Below are positions 6,246-19,864 of a stretch of 21,181 nt of DNA, piece by piece. The translations under genes were made by a program, and so were the position numbers. The stretch comes from a virus: the IMG/VR virus record IMGVR_UViG_3300001450_000306, positions 2,819 to 23,999 of that record. The stretch is one strand, 5' to 3'. How positions within the stretch are numbered: the first letter of the stretch is position 1; each line of letters begins with the position of its first letter. The notes beneath the pieces are model-generated. The model did not search any database. It was given only the letters and a program-made list of their open reading frames with translations, and was not told where the DNA came from.

Positions 6246-7765
6246 AGCCCGACCCCTACTTCGTAGCGGACATCTGTAGCAAGCCAACGAACAGACTGTT
6301 GGGTCGTGCTGGTTCTAACGCGGACGGCTGCGTTCCAGCCGATGTCGGCTACGCTAAACCACGCTTGATGGGTTGTGATCGGGCTTCCCCACGTTGCTGA
6401 GTCCCAAGTCGCTGTGTCCCACGCAGAGGCGATAGAGCCTGTCGTGCTTGGTGTAAACGTCGTGGTTCCATCTCTGAAGTCTGTATCAAAGCCGATGCTG
6501 ACCTCAAGCTCAGAGTCGCTCGCCATAACAGGCCGGATTGCTGTGTAACGCTTTGGTCCAGACCTACCGCCGAAGTAGATAAAGGCTGTCTTAGCGACGG
6601 CTTCTATTGCCCCGCCCGAATCGTCTGTTCCGCTGTCTGCTTTGTAGACCTTGGTGCTTCCCCCGAAATAGAGGTCGCTATTAAATACAGCCCAAGCATA
6701 TCCGTCTTGATTGGTGAAACGGGACCATGCCCCAGTTTCTAAATTGATGATGTATTGAATAAAGTTGCCAGCGGTAGACGATGGAACATTAACAGCGGCG
6801 TATCCGCCTTTTGGATACACCACTCCTTGCCAGCCAAAAGTTCCCTTAAACTCAACGACTGAATCGTTGTAGCTGTTGCTGATCTTGTCGCTAAGAGCGA
6901 CGTTCGGCGCAGCCTCGCCTGTTCCAAGAACCTGGGTCATTGGAAGCAGGCCGTTCTCTGTGACTAGATAGCAGTCAGAGCCAACCTTCATCATGCACCT
7001 ACGCCCGATTGGCCGACCAACCGTGTAAACGCCGACTAATCCCCACTTTGTAGCGTCGGATGGGTCGGTCCCGCTGTACATCGCGATCTCGCCTTGGTCG
7101 GTAAAGAACAAGATGTTGTCATCAGGACCAGACCCACCATCACGGGTCCAGGTGCTGATCGCCATCAGCTTGCCGCCCTTGCTGAAAACGCTGCCCAGAT
7201 TTACTGAGGCAACTGTTCCAGCAATGCTATTCACCGGCAGATATCCATACGTTAGGCTGTCGGTTAGAACGAAGAACAGCCGCTCTTGGTAGACCTCGAC
7301 ATTAATTATGTTTGCGGCGGTAACGCTGCCCAATGTCGGCGTGGCCCATGCAGAGCCGTTCCAGTGACGAGGTGCGTCCTCACCGTTGCAGATCCAAAGA
7401 AATGACCCACCAGAAGTGGTCATGTTGACCGACTGAAATTTAGCGTTAGACAGACTGGTAATAACAGCAGCGCCAACAGAACCCGCGCTAGTCACGTTGT
7501 AGACTGCGCTCCCGCTTGCGGCGAACATCGTGTTGGCCGTGCCGCTGTTGTAGACCATCAAGCTCTCCACCGTAGACGGCAGACTTGTCACATGGTCGTC
7601 GTATCCGTTGCGAACTTGAACGTGAGAGCGCGCTGGGAAGAAATTGTCCAGCCTGATTGCGTCAGTCTCCGGCAACAAGTCCACCGAATCACGGGTGTTT
7701 AGACCGCCTATCGGAGATGGGAAAGCAGTGCTTTGCCCGGTCATGGATGCAGGAGATCTTGCCAT
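6242..7765 (-). CDS. Tail nozzle/hub-type structural protein (P22 gp10-like)
   Basis: A 507-residue protein composed almost entirely of short beta strands separated by Gly/Asp/Thr turns. It begins after a short leader with GGLNTRDSVDLLPETDAIRLDNFFP (residues about 20-44). This opening is typical of podovirus proteins of the P22 gp10 tail-hub type, where a GGLNxRD...P..A..LDNF signature precedes a beta-propeller-like body. Repeating WICNGEDAPRHWNG and DGYAWAVFNSDLYFG segments fit propeller blades. In P22, gp10 caps the gp4 adaptor ring and holds the tailspikes and needle. The gp4-like gene lies upstream here, which supports the role. The ATG overlaps the preceding stop by one base (TGATG). I am confident of a tail structural role and less certain of exact homology to gp10. 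Confidence 0.75.
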   Translation of the reverse strand: MARSPASMTGQSTAFPSPIGGLNTRDSVDLLPETDAIRLDNFFPARSHVQVRNGYDDHVTSLPSTVESLMVYNSGTANTMFAASGSAVYNVTSAGSVGAAVITSLSNAKFQSVNMTTSGGSFLWICNGEDAPRHWNGSAWATPTLGSVTAANIINVEVYQERLFFVLTDSLTYGYLPVNSIAGTVASVNLGSVFSKGGKLMAISTWTRDGGSGPDDNILFFTDQGEIAMYSGTDPSDATKWGLVGVYTVGRPIGRRCMMKVGSDCYLVTENGLLPMTQVLGTGEAAPNVALSDKISNSYNDSVVEFKGTFGWQGVVYPKGGYAAVNVPSSTAGNFIQYIINLETGAWSRFTNQDGYAWAVFNSDLYFGGSTKVYKADSGTDDSGGAIEAVAKTAFIYFGGRSGPKRYTAIRPVMASDSELEVSIGFDTDFRDGTTTFTPSTTGSIASAWDTATWDSATWGSPITTHQAWFSVADIGWNAAVRVRTSTTQQSVRWLATDVRYEVGVGL

Positions 7766-9096
7766 CAGCCTATACGACCAGGGCCATACGCCAAGTTCTG
7801 AGCAAGCCTATCAAGAACCCACTGCGGCGGTTTGTAATACTCCTTGACCGCAGGCGGCGCTGGGTCATTTGCGGGGTCTGTTGGGTCTGTTGGTTGCGTA
7901 GCCGCCATAAGCTCTTCATCGCTCGGGCTTGGGAGGCTTATATCGTCAATGTTAAAATCATCGTTATAAGTACCTCCTTCACCCGCAAGAGGAGTTAAGT
8001 CAGCATCAAAGGTAACTTCGCCTTTTGCAGCGGGTGTCATAAGATTTCTGCCGCCAAGAATAGCCGATAGCCAGGTAGGCAATAAAGAACTCGCAACTCC
8101 CATCCCGATATCCGCCGCTGTCCCAGAACGCCCTCTTGATACAATTCCCGTATACGGGTCTTGAACGACTGTAAGGTCACCAGGAGACATCCTGCCAAAA
8201 AAACTGTTGTTAGCTTTGTCTACGTCGGCTTGTTCAAGCTGCGCCTCTATCGTAGGCACGGTAAAAGCATATGGACTTCCGCCAGGATAAGATGTGTTTG
8301 AGGCAGATCTAGTAATTCCGTCCGGTCCAGTTCTTGTCTGCCCTGGCTTACCTCTTTCGCCCGAATCATAGATAGACCGTGTTACGCCATCTTTATCAAC
8401 ATATGTCCCGGTTCTAGTGTTAGGGCCTTTCCCAACTTTTGATGCGTCGTACTTAGAGCCGACTGATGCCCGGTCAGCAATATCATCAGCAATGGTTTGG
8501 TCAGCAAGAATATCAGCAATTCCTTTGCTTCCCGTGCCTGCAAGAAGGCTGTTTGTATTAGCTGTTTGAACAGCAAGAATGTCAGCTATGCCTTGGCTTC
8601 TAGCCTGCTCCGCTGCTGCCGCTATGCCGCCGCTTCGTATGTTGGCTTGAGCCTGGGCTTGGGCTTGGGCTTGGGCTTGAGCCTGGGCCTCAGCTTGAGC
8701 TTGGGCCTGGGCAAATTCTTGAGCGACAGTAGTTGGATTGTCGCCTCTGACACCTGAGTTGCCTTGTGGACCGGCGGCGGCGGCGGCGGCGGCGGCTCCA
8801 GCATCAACAGCGGACTGTATGTCAAAGTTTACTGAGGGCGCGTTTACTGAAGGCGCATCTACTGAAGGCGCACTTGGAGCTGTGACGGACGGGTTGTCAA
8901 ACGAAACGCTACCGAGTCCGCTAAAGTACGCAGGCATCCCGTTATACATATTCTGCCCGCCATCAGGAGCAACGCCGCCACCCATAGAGCGCAGAACCTC
9001 ACTCTCGTCAGGCCGAATATAAGCAGCGAAATGCCCAGGAGGAGCGCTGCGATTAAGCGCCCTTCCCATTAACTCGCCATAAAGATCGCGCTTCAT
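7765..9096 (-). CDS. Low-complexity virion-associated protein, 443 aa
   Basis: A complete frame lying between a 57-aa basic protein (3-nt gap) and the nozzle-type gene (1-nt overlap). Residues about 68-90 carry a short repeat (APSVDAPSVNAPSVN), followed by a run of eight Ala, then an Ala-Gln dipeptide tract around residues 130-150. Between about 150 and 200 the phrase GIADILA recurs three times or so (QGIADILAVQ, KGIADILADQ). The second half is Gly/Asp/Pro/Thr-rich and ends in an aromatic-basic tail (YYKPPQWVLDRLAQN). I do not recognise a family. The composition suggests a flexible or fibrous virion component rather than an enzyme. Its DNA has matching tandem repeats, so length variation between relatives is likely. 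It could equally be a non-structural filler gene. Confidence 0.7.
   Translation of the reverse strand: MKRDLYGELMGRALNRSAPPGHFAAYIRPDESEVLRSMGGGVAPDGGQNMYNGMPAYFSGLGSVSFDNPSVTAPSAPSVDAPSVNAPSVNFDIQSAVDAGAAAAAAAAGPQGNSGVRGDNPTTVAQEFAQAQAQAEAQAQAQAQAQAQAQANIRSGGIAAAAEQARSQGIADILAVQTANTNSLLAGTGSKGIADILADQTIADDIADRASVGSKYDASKVGKGPNTRTGTYVDKDGVTRSIYDSGERGKPGQTRTGPDGITRSASNTSYPGGSPYAFTVPTIEAQLEQADVDKANNSFFGRMSPGDLTVVQDPYTGIVSRGRSGTAADIGMGVASSLLPTWLSAILGGRNLMTPAAKGEVTFDADLTPLAGEGGTYNDDFNIDDISLPSPSDEELMAATQPTDPTDPANDPAPPAVKEYYKPPQWVLDRLAQNLAYGPGRIG
8644..8712 (+). repeat. Hexanucleotide tandem repeat inside the 443-aa gene
   Basis: Read on the plus strand, this tract is a run of GCTTGG/GCTTGA/GCCTGG units, imperfect but close to a 6-bp period. 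On the coding minus strand it encodes the Ala-Gln (with a few Glu) tract. The same gene also contains a pure CGG/GGC run at 8772-8796 that encodes poly-alanine. Such tracts are prone to slippage. Confidence 0.85.
8772..8796 (+). repeat. GGC trinucleotide run (poly-Ala codons)
   Basis: About eight uninterrupted CGG/GGC triplets. On the minus strand they read as GCC codons and encode the poly-alanine stretch of the 443-aa protein. The use of a single alanine codon throughout suggests expansion by replication slippage rather than selection on the protein alone. Confidence 0.85.
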
Positions 9097-13025: not shown

Positions 13026-13281
13026 TTCTAATTGTATCCCAGTTGGAGGGGCGTTCACTTCCGGTCCAATCGTTGCCGGTTTGGCGAACATTATGTTTTT
13101 TCTCGTGTTCCCGCAATTCTGACCGGCTAGTTACATAGCTGCCGTCTACAGGACTTTGGAAAGGCTCAATGTCTCTAATAATGTTGTAGGCAACTTTTTG
13201 GCTTGCGGTTTCAACGCGAGAAACAGCCTTGCGCTTGTCCCACTTAATCTCATCGTAGTTGCTTAAATATTTCTTGTTCAT
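13012..13281 (-). CDS. Conserved small phage protein between portal and scaffold
   Basis: An 89-residue protein whose ATG overlaps the portal stop as ATGA, with an AGAGGG ribosome binding site. The second half, SPVDGSYVTSRSELREHEKK followed by HNVRQTGNDW, is a pattern I recall from many podophage proteins at this same place (P..G..I.SRs.LreHek.H...qvGND). Its His residues and SRSELREHEKKHNV helix suggest a small DNA- or metal-binding fold, although no Cys pair is present. Its role is unknown. Gene order (portal, this gene, scaffold, coat) is widely kept, so it may help procapsid assembly. I regard the gene as certain and the role as open. Confidence 0.8.
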   Translation of the reverse strand: MNKKYLSNYDEIKWDKRKAVSRVETASQKVAYNIIRDIEPFQSPVDGSYVTSRSELREHEKKHNVRQTGNDWTGSERPSNWDTIRNVNN

Positions 13282-15200
13282 CTCTGACCCTCTGCCATAC
13301 GCATTTCTGCTTCTAGCAACGCCAAGTCTTCTTTGCTTTGCACACGTTCAGAGGACGCTCGGCTTTTTTCTTCTATTTCTGCGGCTGTTGCCCGTTCACG
13401 CGAACTGATGTCTGCCAACTTGCCCTCTTGTTTTAATTGCTCACGTTGCATTTCAGCAGCAATCTTTTCTTGTTCGAGCTGCTGCTCTGGCGAGGTTTGA
13501 GGTTGTTGCTGTGAAGCCTGCAACTTCTGCATGACAGAGGCTTCCGTTTCTTCGATGACCTCTTCAAACTGTCGGCCAACTTTCCATGCACCCGATACAA
13601 ATTTGAGTATCTGGAAAGCAATCGGCGTTAGCTCTGGAGCGGCTTTTGTTGCCTCTATTGCTTGGACTAGATACCCGCCCATGACGTTGGCGAACTCTAT
13701 CCGGGTCCGTTTTATTTGCTCTTCGTCATCGAAGACGGTGCTATCTGTCTCTACGTCGATTTGATAGCTACGCAACTTATCGTTACGCATGATCTCGACC
13801 ATCTCTTCGGTGATCTCAATCCCGGTAATACGCTCCAAGATTTCTGGCTCGTAATTTTCTGCAATCAACTCGGCTTTAATACGGAAAAGATCGCGGATGT
13901 ACTTGGATATGTCTTCTTGGCGTAGCCGTAACCGCATTGAGCCGTACTGTGCTTTGAGCTGTTGCGCTGTTGCACTCTCGCTAGCTTTTGTGCCGCCGCC
14001 TCGAATGATGTCCGAAATTCCAGTGATCTCATAAATCGCCTGCAACACCTGGTTCCGCTGGTTGTATAGGCCAGCAAGAACCTGAGTGATCGAAGAAATG
14101 TCTTCTGTTTGAAAAGCGCCAGCTAATCCGCCTTTTTGGGCCAGATTTGCAAAGTTATCGCTCGGAACGAACTCATTGTCTGATGCGTTTGCTAGGTGCG
14201 CTAACTCTGGAATGCTTGCGTCATAGACGCCCCGGCGCTTTAGCCCTTCAATTAGGTTTGTAATTCGAGTGGTTACGCGGTCAAGCTCATCTGCTTGGTC
14301 TTGGTAAAGCGTAAACTCTGGAACTGGAACAGACGTGTTGTTCGTGTGGACTGCTATTAGCGGCGTCGGACACGGGAAGAAGTTCTCTAGGCTATACGGG
14401 TCTTCGTCATCTGCCAGAACATCCTTGTGTCCTGTTGCAACGAACAAACGCCGACGCTTTACTTTGTCCCAGATTTCCCAAACTTCGGCGCGGCTGTAGC
14501 TATCGTCTGCATCTCCAGCGTCCGGGCGTTCTGGACTCCAATTAAGGGGAACGTCTTCTGCGTTATCAAAACCACGTCCAACAAGTTCTTCTCGCGTAAG
14601 CAAGTGTCGCCGCGCCCGCCATGAAACGTCGTCTGATCTACGGCTTGGGCTTTCTCGGTAATCTTGCCAGTGAACGTATTCAAATCGGCAACGCTGATCG
14701 CCAAGACGCTCGACTTCTTCTTCTTCTGTAATGTTTACGCCGTCGCCTTTAATTTGGATCTTTGTTTTTTCTTTAATAATTATCGGCTCATAGACAACCC
14801 ACACTACCCCGCGTCCAGGCAACAGGTAGTCTTCTAGCGCAGCGCGAACAGGCAACGCCGAATCGTAGGTATCCATTTCGTAAAGAAGCGCACGCTCTAG
14901 TGCGATAGCAACTTGTCGTGCCGCAGCGTCACCGCCGCTAAACCGGCGACGAACATCAGGCTGGGCCATGCGCGCAAACAGTGCGCCCTTTAGCGTCTCG
15001 GTATTAGACCAAAGAATGTTGAAACGATGGCTAAGAGGTCCAGAAAGTCCGGTATCCCGCTCGTCACGGTATCGTTCTACAACACGAATGCCGCGATCCC
15101 GCCAATCACGCTCGAAGTCACTGGCTTGGTCGATCTCACGTTGCCAATAACGAGCGGTGCCGTAGAGCTTTTCTTGTTCTGCCTGGGTGCTATCTGCCAT
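13278..15200 (-). CDS. Portal protein (P22-like)
   Basis: The 640-residue length, N-terminal helix-rich region (YWQREIDQASDFERDWRDRG) and early segment FNILWSNTETLKGALFARMA with an Arg-rich, Pro-containing sequel fit the P22-type portal family. The family forms the dodecameric ring through which DNA enters and leaves the head. The wing region follows (LPGRGVVWVVYEP, CRFEYVHWQDYRESPSRRSD) and then stem helices (YQDQADELDRVTTRITNLIE). The last 90 residues are highly charged and Gln-rich coiled coil (QQLEQEKIAAEMQREQLKQE), likely the barrel that lines the inner channel in P22-like portals. The ATG lies one base after the stop of the upstream gene, with no ribosome binding site of its own, so translation is presumably coupled. 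Confidence 0.88.
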   Translation of the reverse strand: MADSTQAEQEKLYGTARYWQREIDQASDFERDWRDRGIRVVERYRDERDTGLSGPLSHRFNILWSNTETLKGALFARMAQPDVRRRFSGGDAAARQVAIALERALLYEMDTYDSALPVRAALEDYLLPGRGVVWVVYEPIIIKEKTKIQIKGDGVNITEEEEVERLGDQRCRFEYVHWQDYRESPSRRSDDVSWRARRHLLTREELVGRGFDNAEDVPLNWSPERPDAGDADDSYSRAEVWEIWDKVKRRRLFVATGHKDVLADDEDPYSLENFFPCPTPLIAVHTNNTSVPVPEFTLYQDQADELDRVTTRITNLIEGLKRRGVYDASIPELAHLANASDNEFVPSDNFANLAQKGGLAGAFQTEDISSITQVLAGLYNQRNQVLQAIYEITGISDIIRGGGTKASESATAQQLKAQYGSMRLRLRQEDISKYIRDLFRIKAELIAENYEPEILERITGIEITEEMVEIMRNDKLRSYQIDVETDSTVFDDEEQIKRTRIEFANVMGGYLVQAIEATKAAPELTPIAFQILKFVSGAWKVGRQFEEVIEETEASVMQKLQASQQQPQTSPEQQLEQEKIAAEMQREQLKQEGKLADISSRERATAAEIEEKSRASSERVQSKEDLALLEAEMRMAEGQR

Positions 15201-17832: not shown

Positions 17833-17839
17833 CCTTTTT

Positions 17840-17869
17840 GTTATATCCCAATTTTACAGAAGCCAACAA
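17840..17869 (-). promoter_or_regulatory. Candidate leftward late promoter before terS
   Basis: On the minus strand, TTGTTG (17869-17864), an 18-nt spacer and TATAAC (17845-17840) form a plausible sigma70-like promoter. Only 7 nt separate the -10 box from the terS ATG at 17832. If transcription began at the usual distance, the message would have little or no leader. An inverted repeat AGAAGCC/GGCTTCT overlaps its upstream part. Confidence 0.35.
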
Positions 17870-17896
17870 CCCAGGGGGCGGTGTCTAAAGGCTTCT
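17858..17896. promoter_or_regulatory. Inverted repeat overlapping the candidate late promoter
   Basis: AGAAGCC at 17858-17864 and its complement GGCTTCT at 17890-17896 are 25 nt apart, centre to centre about three helical turns. The left arm overlaps the putative -35 box of the terS promoter. This could be an operator, a transcript hairpin, or chance; a 7-bp arm is weak evidence. Confidence 0.25.
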
Positions 17897-17905
17897 AGTT
17901 ATATT

Positions 17906-17927
17906 GGTGCCCTTTTTGGACCCCTTA
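17906..17927 (+). repeat. 22-bp intergenic direct repeat, copy 1
   Basis: GGTGCCCTTTTTGGACCCC plus TTA occurs here and, identical over 22 bp, at 18031-18052. Each copy lies close to a TGCAACACTCCTG 13-mer pair (17969-17981, 18012-18024). A CCCC-TTAATA-GGGG pairing directly follows this copy. The repeat lies just upstream of terS, so it may be a protein-binding site such as the terminase recognition site. Confidence 0.85.
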
Positions 17928-18030
17928 ATAGGGGGGGGTATCTACCCCCTCCATCGCCACTGCAACAGTGCAACACTCCTGCCTCGTTCATTTAAAATCC
18001 TTTATTGTCCTTGCAACACTCCTGGGAATA

Positions 18031-18052
18031 GGTGCCCTTTTTGGACCCCTTA
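18031..18052 (+). repeat. 22-bp intergenic direct repeat, copy 2
   Basis: Identical over 22 bp to 17906-17927, 125 bp further on. The flanking bases differ (ATA versus TTAA after the repeat), so the exact match marks its boundary. Confidence 0.85.
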
Positions 18053-18301
18053 TTAAAATCGTTTGCGCTTAGGTCGGAAACTACCGAGTTAGCGACCAGA
18101 TCAACGGCAACAACTAGAGCGTATCGAGTGAATACCTAGTAGAGGGCTGAAAATAGGGGGTTGGTGGGGGTGAGTTAGCCCAGCTAGGCCCCCGGACCGG
18201 GCACCCGGGCGTCGAGCCGCGCCGCGCCGTTTAAACTCGTTTTCGGGCCAGGGGCCCCTATCGGATAGGCTGTAACCCGCGCCACGCCTAGGGTTTAGGC
18301 C

Positions 18302-18319
18302 GGGTCGGGCCGGGGCGGG
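18302..18319 (+). other. G-quadruplex-type motif
   Basis: The plus strand has GGG-TC-GGG-CC-GGGG-C-GGG here, four G-tracts with loops of 1-2 nt, and further G-tracts at 18327-18329, 18332-18335, 18341-18343 and 18348-18352. This matches the standard intramolecular G-quadruplex pattern. It falls in the most GC-rich part of the non-coding stretch. Whether it folds in the cell cannot be told from sequence. Confidence 0.6.
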
Positions 18320-18423
18320 CGCGCTAGGGCTGGGGCTTTTGGGCGCTGGGGGACACTCCCGCGTGCTGTTCGCACCACCGTCCAACACCACTCGACCACG
18401 CTACAAACGAGGCCAGCCCTGGC

Positions 18424-18460
18424 ATTGCCCGCCTAGCGCCGGGGCTAGGTATTGCCCGCC
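18424..18460. repeat. Palindrome flanked by direct repeats downstream of the initiator-like gene
   Basis: CCTAGCGCCGGGGCTAGG (18432-18449) is an 18-bp imperfect palindrome (CCTAGC/GCTAGG arms). It is flanked by two copies of ATTGCCCGCC at 18424-18433 and 18451-18460. It begins 33 nt after the stop of the minus-strand initiator-like gene. It lacks a U-tract on the minus strand, so it is a weak terminator candidate or a protein-binding site. Confidence 0.6.
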
Positions 18461-18482
18461 CGATGTCGGTCGTTGCCCTTGG

Positions 18483-18986
18483 CTACTTTCGTTGGCGTCG
18501 TTCTCGGTTCAATCTTTGTGCCTGCTCGGATACCGTCTCGAAGGTCCAGTCTCCAGTGTCTTGCCTAATAGGCGAATCAAAAACAGAATCCACCGGCAAC
18601 CCGTTACTAGGATAAGTCTCACTAGGATAGTCCCTAGGATGTTTACTAGGATTGGGGTCCGGTGTGGACCGCCTAGACGGCCCAGAGTGAACTACCTTGT
18701 GCCCAGTGTGGACCCCCACCGTGTCCCCGGTGAACCCTACCCTATATCGGTTCGTGCCCTTGCGGCCCTTGCCGGTAGCCTCTAGCAGGCCGCGTTTACA
18801 CAATGCGGCAATAGAGCGCTTGACGGTGGACCGCGAGCAACAACACCGGGCCGACAACGTCTCAATACTCGGATAGGCGTTAGCCCCGGCCTTATCAGTG
18901 AAGCTGACAAGCGCTAGCAGGACAATACGCTCGGACATTGTCAAATCCGGCACCTTCCAGGCCGGGCCAATCAGCCGCCAACTCAT
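18483..18986 (-). CDS. Winged-helix protein, probable phage replication initiator (O-like)
   Basis: The 167-residue product starts with a winged helix-turn-helix of the HTH_36 kind (residues about 8-80). It has PDLTMSERIVLLALVSFTDK, then ANAYPSIETLSARCCCSRST and VKRSIAALCKRGLLEATGKG, with KGTNRYRVGF as the wing. This pattern is typical of the N-terminal DNA-binding domain of phage replication proteins such as lambda O. A Pro/Ser/His-rich linker follows (about residues 85-140), encoded by DNA with iteron-like repeats. A short helical tail (QAQRLNRERRQRK) ends the protein. The length is short for an initiator with a DnaB-loader-binding domain. A transcription regulator is the alternative. It overlaps the Cro-like gene as ATGA. 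Confidence 0.75.
   Translation of the reverse strand: MSWRLIGPAWKVPDLTMSERIVLLALVSFTDKAGANAYPSIETLSARCCCSRSTVKRSIAALCKRGLLEATGKGRKGTNRYRVGFTGDTVGVHTGHKVVHSGPSRRSTPDPNPSKHPRDYPSETYPSNGLPVDSVFDSPIRQDTGDWTFETVSEQAQRLNRERRQRK
18606..18735 (+). repeat. Iteron-like direct repeats inside the initiator-like gene
   Basis: Two sets of direct repeats are read on the plus strand. Set A is (A/C)CTAGGAT at 18606-18613, 18621-18628, 18633-18640 and 18645-18652, spaced 15, 12 and 12 bp. Set B is a 13-mer at 18657-18669 (GTCCGGTGTGGAC), 18680-18692 (GCCCAGAGTGAAC), 18701-18713 (GCCCAGTGTGGAC) and 18723-18735 (GTCCCCGGTGAAC), spaced 23, 21 and 22 bp, close to two helical turns. The shared form of set B is GYCC...GTGRAC. 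All lie in the linker-coding part of the gene, the arrangement seen for origin iterons in lambda O. That parallel is inferred. Confidence 0.65.
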
Positions 18987-19177
18987 ATGTCCGCGTCTAG
19001 CGCACGGCGCGCCATATAGCGCCGTAATTTCAGTACGGTTGACCGTCTAGCCGTCCCCGCGCCGCCTCGTCGCATTCGATGGATTAAATGAGAGTCCCCC
19101 GTTGCGGCCAGCCCCAGGGCGGTGTCAGATAACCCGTATTTTTCGCAAAATTCCGTCAATTCTTCTAGCAGGTCCAT
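18983..19177 (-). CDS. Small Cro-like helix-turn-helix protein
   Basis: The preferred start is ATG 19177, because GGGAG lies 5 nt upstream; ATG 19189 would add four residues but lacks a ribosome binding site. The 64-aa product (MDLLEELTEFCEKYGLSDTA) has the compact helical pattern of small phage or proteobacterial DNA-binding proteins. A first helix is followed by a helix-turn-helix GLSDTALGLAATGDSHLIHR, then a basic stretch (RMRRGGAGTARRSTVLKLRR) ending in a helix. It overlaps the downstream initiator-like gene as ATGA. An intrinsic terminator stands directly upstream. It probably binds DNA and may control the divergent promoters at 19832-19967. Not tested. Confidence 0.7.
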   Translation of the reverse strand: MDLLEELTEFCEKYGLSDTALGLAATGDSHLIHRMRRGGAGTARRSTVLKLRRYMARRALDADI

Positions 19178-19237: not shown

Positions 19238-19831
19238 TTATGACGCCACGGTCATTTCTCCATGTAGAGGGCAATGCGGGACGCCCACGGCAATCCACGT
19301 CCGCGTTGTCCGCACTGTATATCCGCAATGGCACTGGCATTTGACCATGCGGGTGCGCTGTTTTTTGCGCTGAGTCGCGTCCAATTTAGAATGAGGGTAT
19401 TCGCCAACAACGGACATGATCCCCTTGGACCGAGAGAAATGGTCGAACATTTCTTGAAAACCCGGCCCGGCAACGGTTGCGGTCATTTTGCCCGTTAAGC
19501 CCATTGCCAACGCTACCTTGCGAAACGCGGGACCATGCCCAGCCGCCACGCCGACGACCGCGTGGACCAGTTCGTGGCATAGGGTGGCCGCGACGCGCTC
19601 GGGGCAATCTAGCGTCGGGCTGATGAAAATCTCGGTTGTGCCGTCCGCGCTACATGAAGGGTCGAAAATCTGCCCCAACGTGCGGCGGTTAGCACTTAGC
19701 CCACGGCTGGAGGGAAAGCCACAAGAGACGTTGATATTGTCCGGCAGGGGCGCGCCAATGGCCGCGAACTTATCCGCAAAACCGTACTCCACGAAATCCC
19801 TGAGCCATTGTTCGCGAGTCACATTGTCCAT
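19238..19831 (-). CDS. SprT-like zinc metallopeptidase
   Basis: I take ATG 19831 (197 aa), which has AAAGG 8 nt upstream; the frame could start at 19951 but no ribosome binding site supports that. The catalytic helix carries HELVH (residues 86-90) with a third ligand candidate at H99 in GHGPAFRKVA, the HExxH...H arrangement of SprT/Spartan proteins. A C-terminal zinc-ribbon-like part has Cys at 165, 167 and 169 (KCQCHCGYTVRTTRTW), then C187 and H190. Relatives cleave DNA-bound proteins (Spartan, Wss1) or are of unknown role in bacteria and phages. Here it may act at replication or on host DNA-binding proteins, which is inference. It is followed by an intrinsic terminator. Confidence 0.85.
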   Translation of the reverse strand: MDNVTREQWLRDFVEYGFADKFAAIGAPLPDNINVSCGFPSSRGLSANRRTLGQIFDPSCSADGTTEIFISPTLDCPERVAATLCHELVHAVVGVAAGHGPAFRKVALAMGLTGKMTATVAGPGFQEMFDHFSRSKGIMSVVGEYPHSKLDATQRKKQRTRMVKCQCHCGYTVRTTRTWIAVGVPHCPLHGEMTVAS

Positions 19832-19864
19832 TTGTTTAGCCTTTCTAGAGTTCCGATACCCAGC

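Follow-up and report, generated by a model that had tools for sequence, protein, structure and literature searches.

A 130-bp segment inside the initiator gene of an uncultured virus very probably forms the core of a phage replication origin, in which the initiator would bind one set of repeats and open the DNA at a second. We analyzed a window of 21,181 nt, corresponding to positions 2819-23999 of a 24-kb IMG/VR record (IMGVR_UViG_3300001450_000306, G000), along with a 31,017-bp twin record (G001) that matches the window at 100% identity across 1.4 kb around the repeats and on which all genome-wide repeat statistics were computed. Both of these records and those of the relatives are fragments. 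The computed evidence consists of the repeats themselves, their conservation pattern, the protein fold, the instability of the DNA, and co-variation between protein and repeats. A sequence-only reading had placed a replication origin at these repeats within a lambda-O-like gene, and the initiator match, the fold, and the conservation of the repeats in homologues argue in favor of this placement.

Alignment-guided scans yielded 18 initiator loci including the query, or 17 further homologues, and an extra scan with the distant homologue group added only one weak new locus. A search for prophage relatives in 84,980 bacterial and archaeal genomes gave one weak match, in an Actinomycetota MAG, and at the limits used we found no relatives of the L098 initiator or of the Cro-like partner protein (see below) in cultured phages. 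Elsewhere in the window, the portal protein gene (13278-15200) had more than 400 relatives in IMG/VR contigs and matched cultured phages such as Myxococcus phage Mx8 and Bradyrhizobium phage ppBjS10J-1 at only ~26-34% identity; these portal relatives point to a large uncultured phage group.

The initiator gene (18483-18986, minus strand) encodes a protein of 167 aa, the N-terminus of which matched HTH_36 in a profile search (E 1e-15) as well as several PHROG families of replication initiators. The best of these was PHROG 391, "replication initiation O-like" (E 3e-16, residues 1-95), and the match to O-like profiles stopped at about residue 121. AlphaFold predicted a winged-helix DNA-binding domain at residues 1-83 (18738-18986, minus strand; pLDDT mostly >90) with its recognition helix at residues 52-64 (18795-18833, minus strand), followed by disorder across residues 89-147 and a C-terminal helix at residues 152-166 (18489-18533, minus strand; pLDDT about 79) that possibly acts as a helicase contact. 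Both repeat sets are encoded in the disordered linker. The earlier description of a lambda-O-like initiator with a winged-helix N-terminus and repeats in its linker-coding part is thus supported by the HTH_36 and PHROG 391 matches and by the modeled winged helix and disorder. Between this gene and the small-terminase gene lies a stretch of about 650 bp without a convincing gene (17833-18482), which could be a packaging or regulatory region. GC content is very high in the part adjoining the initiator, and several relatives likewise have a long GC-rich stretch after this gene. A 28-bp stretch occurs twice in the region at 93% identity (17903-17930 and 18028-18055).

Four 13-bp repeats, here called set B, lie on the minus strand at 18723-18735 (GTTCACCGGGGAC), 18701-18713 (GTCCACACTGGGC), 18680-18692 (GTTCACTCTGGGC), and 18657-18669 (GTCCACACCGGAC), and have the coding-strand consensus GTYCACNCYGGRC. 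Repeat searches along with frame and chance analyses recovered them exactly where they had been described, spaced 23, 21, and 22 bp apart in plus-strand order. The copies fall in frames 2, 0, 0, and 2 and are therefore not one protein repeat, as had been argued from their disregard of the codon frame; the two copies that share a frame encode VHTG and VHSG. In the form GTYC-N5-GGRC, 6-8 of the 13 positions of each repeat agree with its reverse complement, and 17-18-bp GTCC..GGAC dyads could be read by eye in L098 and L101.

With 30 of 39, set B had the top score among chains of four 13-mers at a spacing of 21-23 bp in G001, where the next non-overlapping chain scored 25; the maximum among 40 first-order Markov genomes of equal size was 28, so that none of the 40 reached the score of set B. 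When 24-bp spacing was also permitted, one gene in G001 with an in-frame protein repeat scored 31, above set B. This gene (window 7765-9096), whose product carries a long AQAQAQ-rich tract, was the only cluster to do so. Under a stricter null, codon shuffles that preserve the protein, the observed score was equaled or exceeded in 2 of 200 cases, making set B of the query phage alone only moderately improbable; this result is weaker because two of the four copies share a frame and encode VHTG/VHSG. In several homologues, synonymous shuffling gave modest values because few linker codons are interchangeable and the motif register differs between groups. Set B is an iteron array whose copies, about two helical turns apart within linker-coding DNA and present at the equivalent place in homologues, are the predicted initiator sites.

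Across the relatives, iteron-like repeats occur at the equivalent place (gene nt about 252-309) and differ in sequence by group. Their spacing of 22-24 bp stays, whereas both the residues of the linker and the sequence of set B vary, which supports an internal origin of the lambda-O type. Each form of the recognition helix is paired with its own repeat: NRSTVHR with TGCAAC, SRSTIKR with CAGTGACC, TTRTIRR with GTCC (GGAC completing the dyad), SARTVRR with GTCC/GGCC, and SRSTVKR with GTYCACNCYGGRC. Among 11 genes, set B distance tracked recognition-helix distance once N-terminal and tail distances were removed (partial r 0.75, permutation p 0.0004), though the homologues are related by descent, so p-values here overstate independence and are optimistic. 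Two genes have the look of natural recombinants, with helix and set B moving as a unit: L099 combines the N-terminus of L096 (93%) with a helix and set B from the NRSTVHR/TGCAAC group, and L100 joins the tail of the L090 group to a helix and set B like those of L098/L101. A fixed-register identity test was non-significant in L098, L100, and L101, where the motifs are shorter and shifted and were read by eye, and no clear set B array was found in the distant genes L102, L106, and L107.

The second set of repeats, set A, consists of four ATCCTAG boxes on the minus strand at 18646-18652 (inside AATCCTAGTAA, 18643-18653), 18634-18640, 18622-18628, and 18607-18613. Repeat search and codon analysis confirmed the four plus-strand CTAGGAT copies at exactly the positions and spacings (15, 12, and 12) first given for them, and these four are the only occurrences of ATCCTAG/CTAGGAT in G001, all within 46 bp. 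Across relatives the box takes the form AATCCT(A/G)(G/T)TAA and stays constant across helix types while set B changes. We tried the DNA pattern AATCCTAGTAA..CCTRGTAA, from set A alone, and rejected it: its 21 matches in viral contigs were unspecific, as those beyond five known family members fell in unrelated genes.

All of set A falls within the 60-bp stretch where the gene's duplex is weakest (18599-18658, minus strand; gene nt 329-388), a probable duplex-unwinding element. Its nearest-neighbor stability is -1.28 kcal/mol per bp, compared with a mean of -1.47 for the whole gene, which ranks it in the weakest 1-3% of the record. Stability profiles of 13 genes place the start of this weakest stretch at or beside set A in every case. 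This weak, AT-rich DNA adjoins the iterons on their C-terminal side, and it is less AT-rich in the query (60% in 40 bp) than in the relatives (70-80%). Because set A does not swap with the recognition helix, sits on the least stable DNA, and has spacings in the query phage that are all multiples of three, we consider a duplex-unwinding element the likelier interpretation, and a further array of sites for the initiator the less likely one. Of the two binding-site families originally proposed, set B thus stands as iterons, while set A resembles an unwinding element and not a second set of duplex sites.

Set A could instead hold duplex sites for a second protein. A small Cro/434-repressor-like gene of 64 aa (18983-19177, minus strand; 68 aa if started from 19189) overlaps the initiator start by ATGA. 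All 14 homologue loci examined carry a partner gene of this kind (64-70 aa) immediately before the initiator, and in 13 of them it has the same ATGA overlap, with its stop at +4 of the initiator. The modeled partner is a compact four-helix HTH (pLDDT 89) whose best fold matches were HipB, 434 repressor, SinR, and 434 Cro (TM about 0.65, no significant E-value); no Pfam or PHROG family matched the protein, and we dismissed a polyubiquitin profile hit, which covered an 18-residue stretch, as fortuitous. Immediately upstream of the partner gene is an SprT-like metalloprotease-type protein (19238-19834) that matched PHROG 6361 (unknown function) at E 2e-37, with Pfam SprT-like slightly under cut-off.

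The position and fold of the partner gene, along with the constancy of set A while set B varies and the fact that partner and box are both most divergent in L106/L107, would fit an origin run by two DNA-binding proteins, with the partner on set A and the initiator on set B. We nevertheless regard this as unlikely. Usual Cro-type operators differ from boxes such as these, which run in direct orientation at intervals of 12-15 bp and show hardly any palindromic symmetry; their location on the least stable DNA is sufficiently explained by an unwinding element, and the partner could be a plain operon repressor. The partner may bind set A or may simply regulate the operon. The fuller form of this idea, in which the conserved set A is recognized by a co-translated Cro-like partner and the fast-evolving set B by the initiator, seems to us slightly less probable again; if it were true, a single operon would encode both proteins and hold both site families.

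A much poorer explanation of set A, and one already disfavored, is that selection acted on its amino acids, as a repeat at the protein level (NPSK/YPSE/NPIN), leaving set B as the sole DNA element. The set A copies of the query and its nearer relatives do all lie in a single codon frame at spacings that are multiples of three, but the residues vary (S, I, G, V, or R after P, and even T in place of P in L099) and the wobble bases do not. Set A proline codons are CCT in 33/33 cases against 11/90 elsewhere in these genes, or 19/19 against 7/50 with one gene per group (Fisher 1e-11), and the serine codon is AGT in 13/14 against 13/79 elsewhere. Furthermore, L102 and L104-L107 keep the box as TAYAATCC at the equivalent place in a different codon frame, where it was present in 11 to 29 of 20,000 shuffles, and the region is predicted to be disordered. 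Taken with the several frames of set B and its co-variation with the helix, this codon constraint indicates that the repeats are kept as DNA and not as protein.

In the origin model we favor, the winged helix of the initiator would bind the four iterons of set B to form an O-some-like complex, which would open the weak DNA at set A. The AATCCTAGTAA boxes, which the initiator perhaps holds single-stranded, would then serve as the unwinding element, and a TOPRIM/DnaB-type primase-helicase encoded by the phage itself would be loaded at the opened DNA. This primase-helicase is encoded on the initiator's record, as are a RusA resolvase and a PD-(D/E)XK exonuclease. No P-type helicase loader was recognised among the genes scanned, a subset of those on a possibly incomplete record, and from this we infer direct recruitment of the primase-helicase. 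Binding, melting, helicase recruitment, and origin activity of the segment are likewise what we infer from the computed features. Cumulative GC skew, another check suggested by the sequence-only reading, does turn near the initiator gene, but proves little because gene orientation switches at the same turn. DnaA boxes TTATNCACA (TTAT[C/A]CACA), a feature of DnaA-dependent origins, were found on neither strand of the 31-kb record. That the repeats are instead operators for autorepression of the initiator is the least probable reading of all: winged-helix proteins frequently autoregulate and intragenic sites could serve as roadblocks, but these sites lie 250-380 bp into the gene, hence downstream of its promoter, and their layout with adjoining weak DNA is the lambda ori pattern.

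We also observed that the primase-helicase occupies two overlapping frames at L085:5389-6855 and L085:6752-7063 (minus strand), a zinc-binding part and a TOPRIM/helicase part, which cover consecutive stretches of one PHROG profile. Separate frames also occur in L112, L060, and L077; they represent either two genes or a programmed frameshift.

The favored model closely follows lambda, where gene O contains ori-lambda with four 18-bp iterons and a 38-bp AT-rich tract (PMC3349717, PMC7466680). As a positive control, our analysis of lambda O recovered iterons 20, 24, and 23 bp apart in frames 0, 2, 2, and 1, with an AT-rich 40-mer directly after them. Lambda and the query share an N-terminal HTH initiator, iterons about 22 bp apart that fall in differing frames within the central, linker-coding part of the gene, and weak DNA on the C-terminal side of the iterons (PMC3349717, PMC7466680). 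They differ in that the query iterons are 13 bp long and only partly dyadic rather than 18 bp, its initiator has 167 residues against 299 in lambda O, its unwinding region carries conserved, codon-constrained boxes, and it has a primase-helicase with no P-type loader recognised in the genes scanned.

We also tested four cultured phages with HTH_36/PHROG 391 initiators: Caudovirus D_HF5_3, Mesorhizobium phage vB_MseS-P1, Arthrobacter phage KellEzio, and Microcystis phage Mvi-Yong1342-1. Their initiators are 34-40% identical to the query over the winged helix and, as in the query, their genes contain repeats mostly 22-23 bp apart (nt 273-433) in different frames. Array scores exceeded the shuffled maximum in D_HF5_3 (38 vs 29), KellEzio (31 vs 27), and P1 (30 vs 28), whereas the Microcystis phage array merely equaled it (27). 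These phages differ from the query in iteron sequence and in their longer proteins, and the set A box was found in none of the four. Since comparable arrays are present in at least three of the four, this kind of origin is already known; what sets this variant apart is its short initiator, together with codon-constrained unwinding boxes, a coupled Cro-like protein, and a primase-helicase without a recognised P-type loader.

Short repeats bound as single strands are known from the unwinding elements of other origins, including the E. coli 13-mers, the RATCA repeats of V. cholerae ori2 with RctB, and DnaA-trios (PMC10797057). Like set A, these are short direct repeats on weak DNA beside the duplex sites of an initiator (PMC10797057), but set A differs from them in sequence and in a 31-kb record that has no DnaA box, and its single-strand binding is conjectural.

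Within this family, the recognition helix and iterons appear to have been swapped as a unit between different backbones while the unwinding box stayed constant, making the family a natural experiment on initiator-origin specificity. Such an exchange would let the recognition code of HTH_36/O-type initiators be read from sequence. It would also let the sequence demands of the unwinding element be tested within a coding region, where codon choice exposes them.
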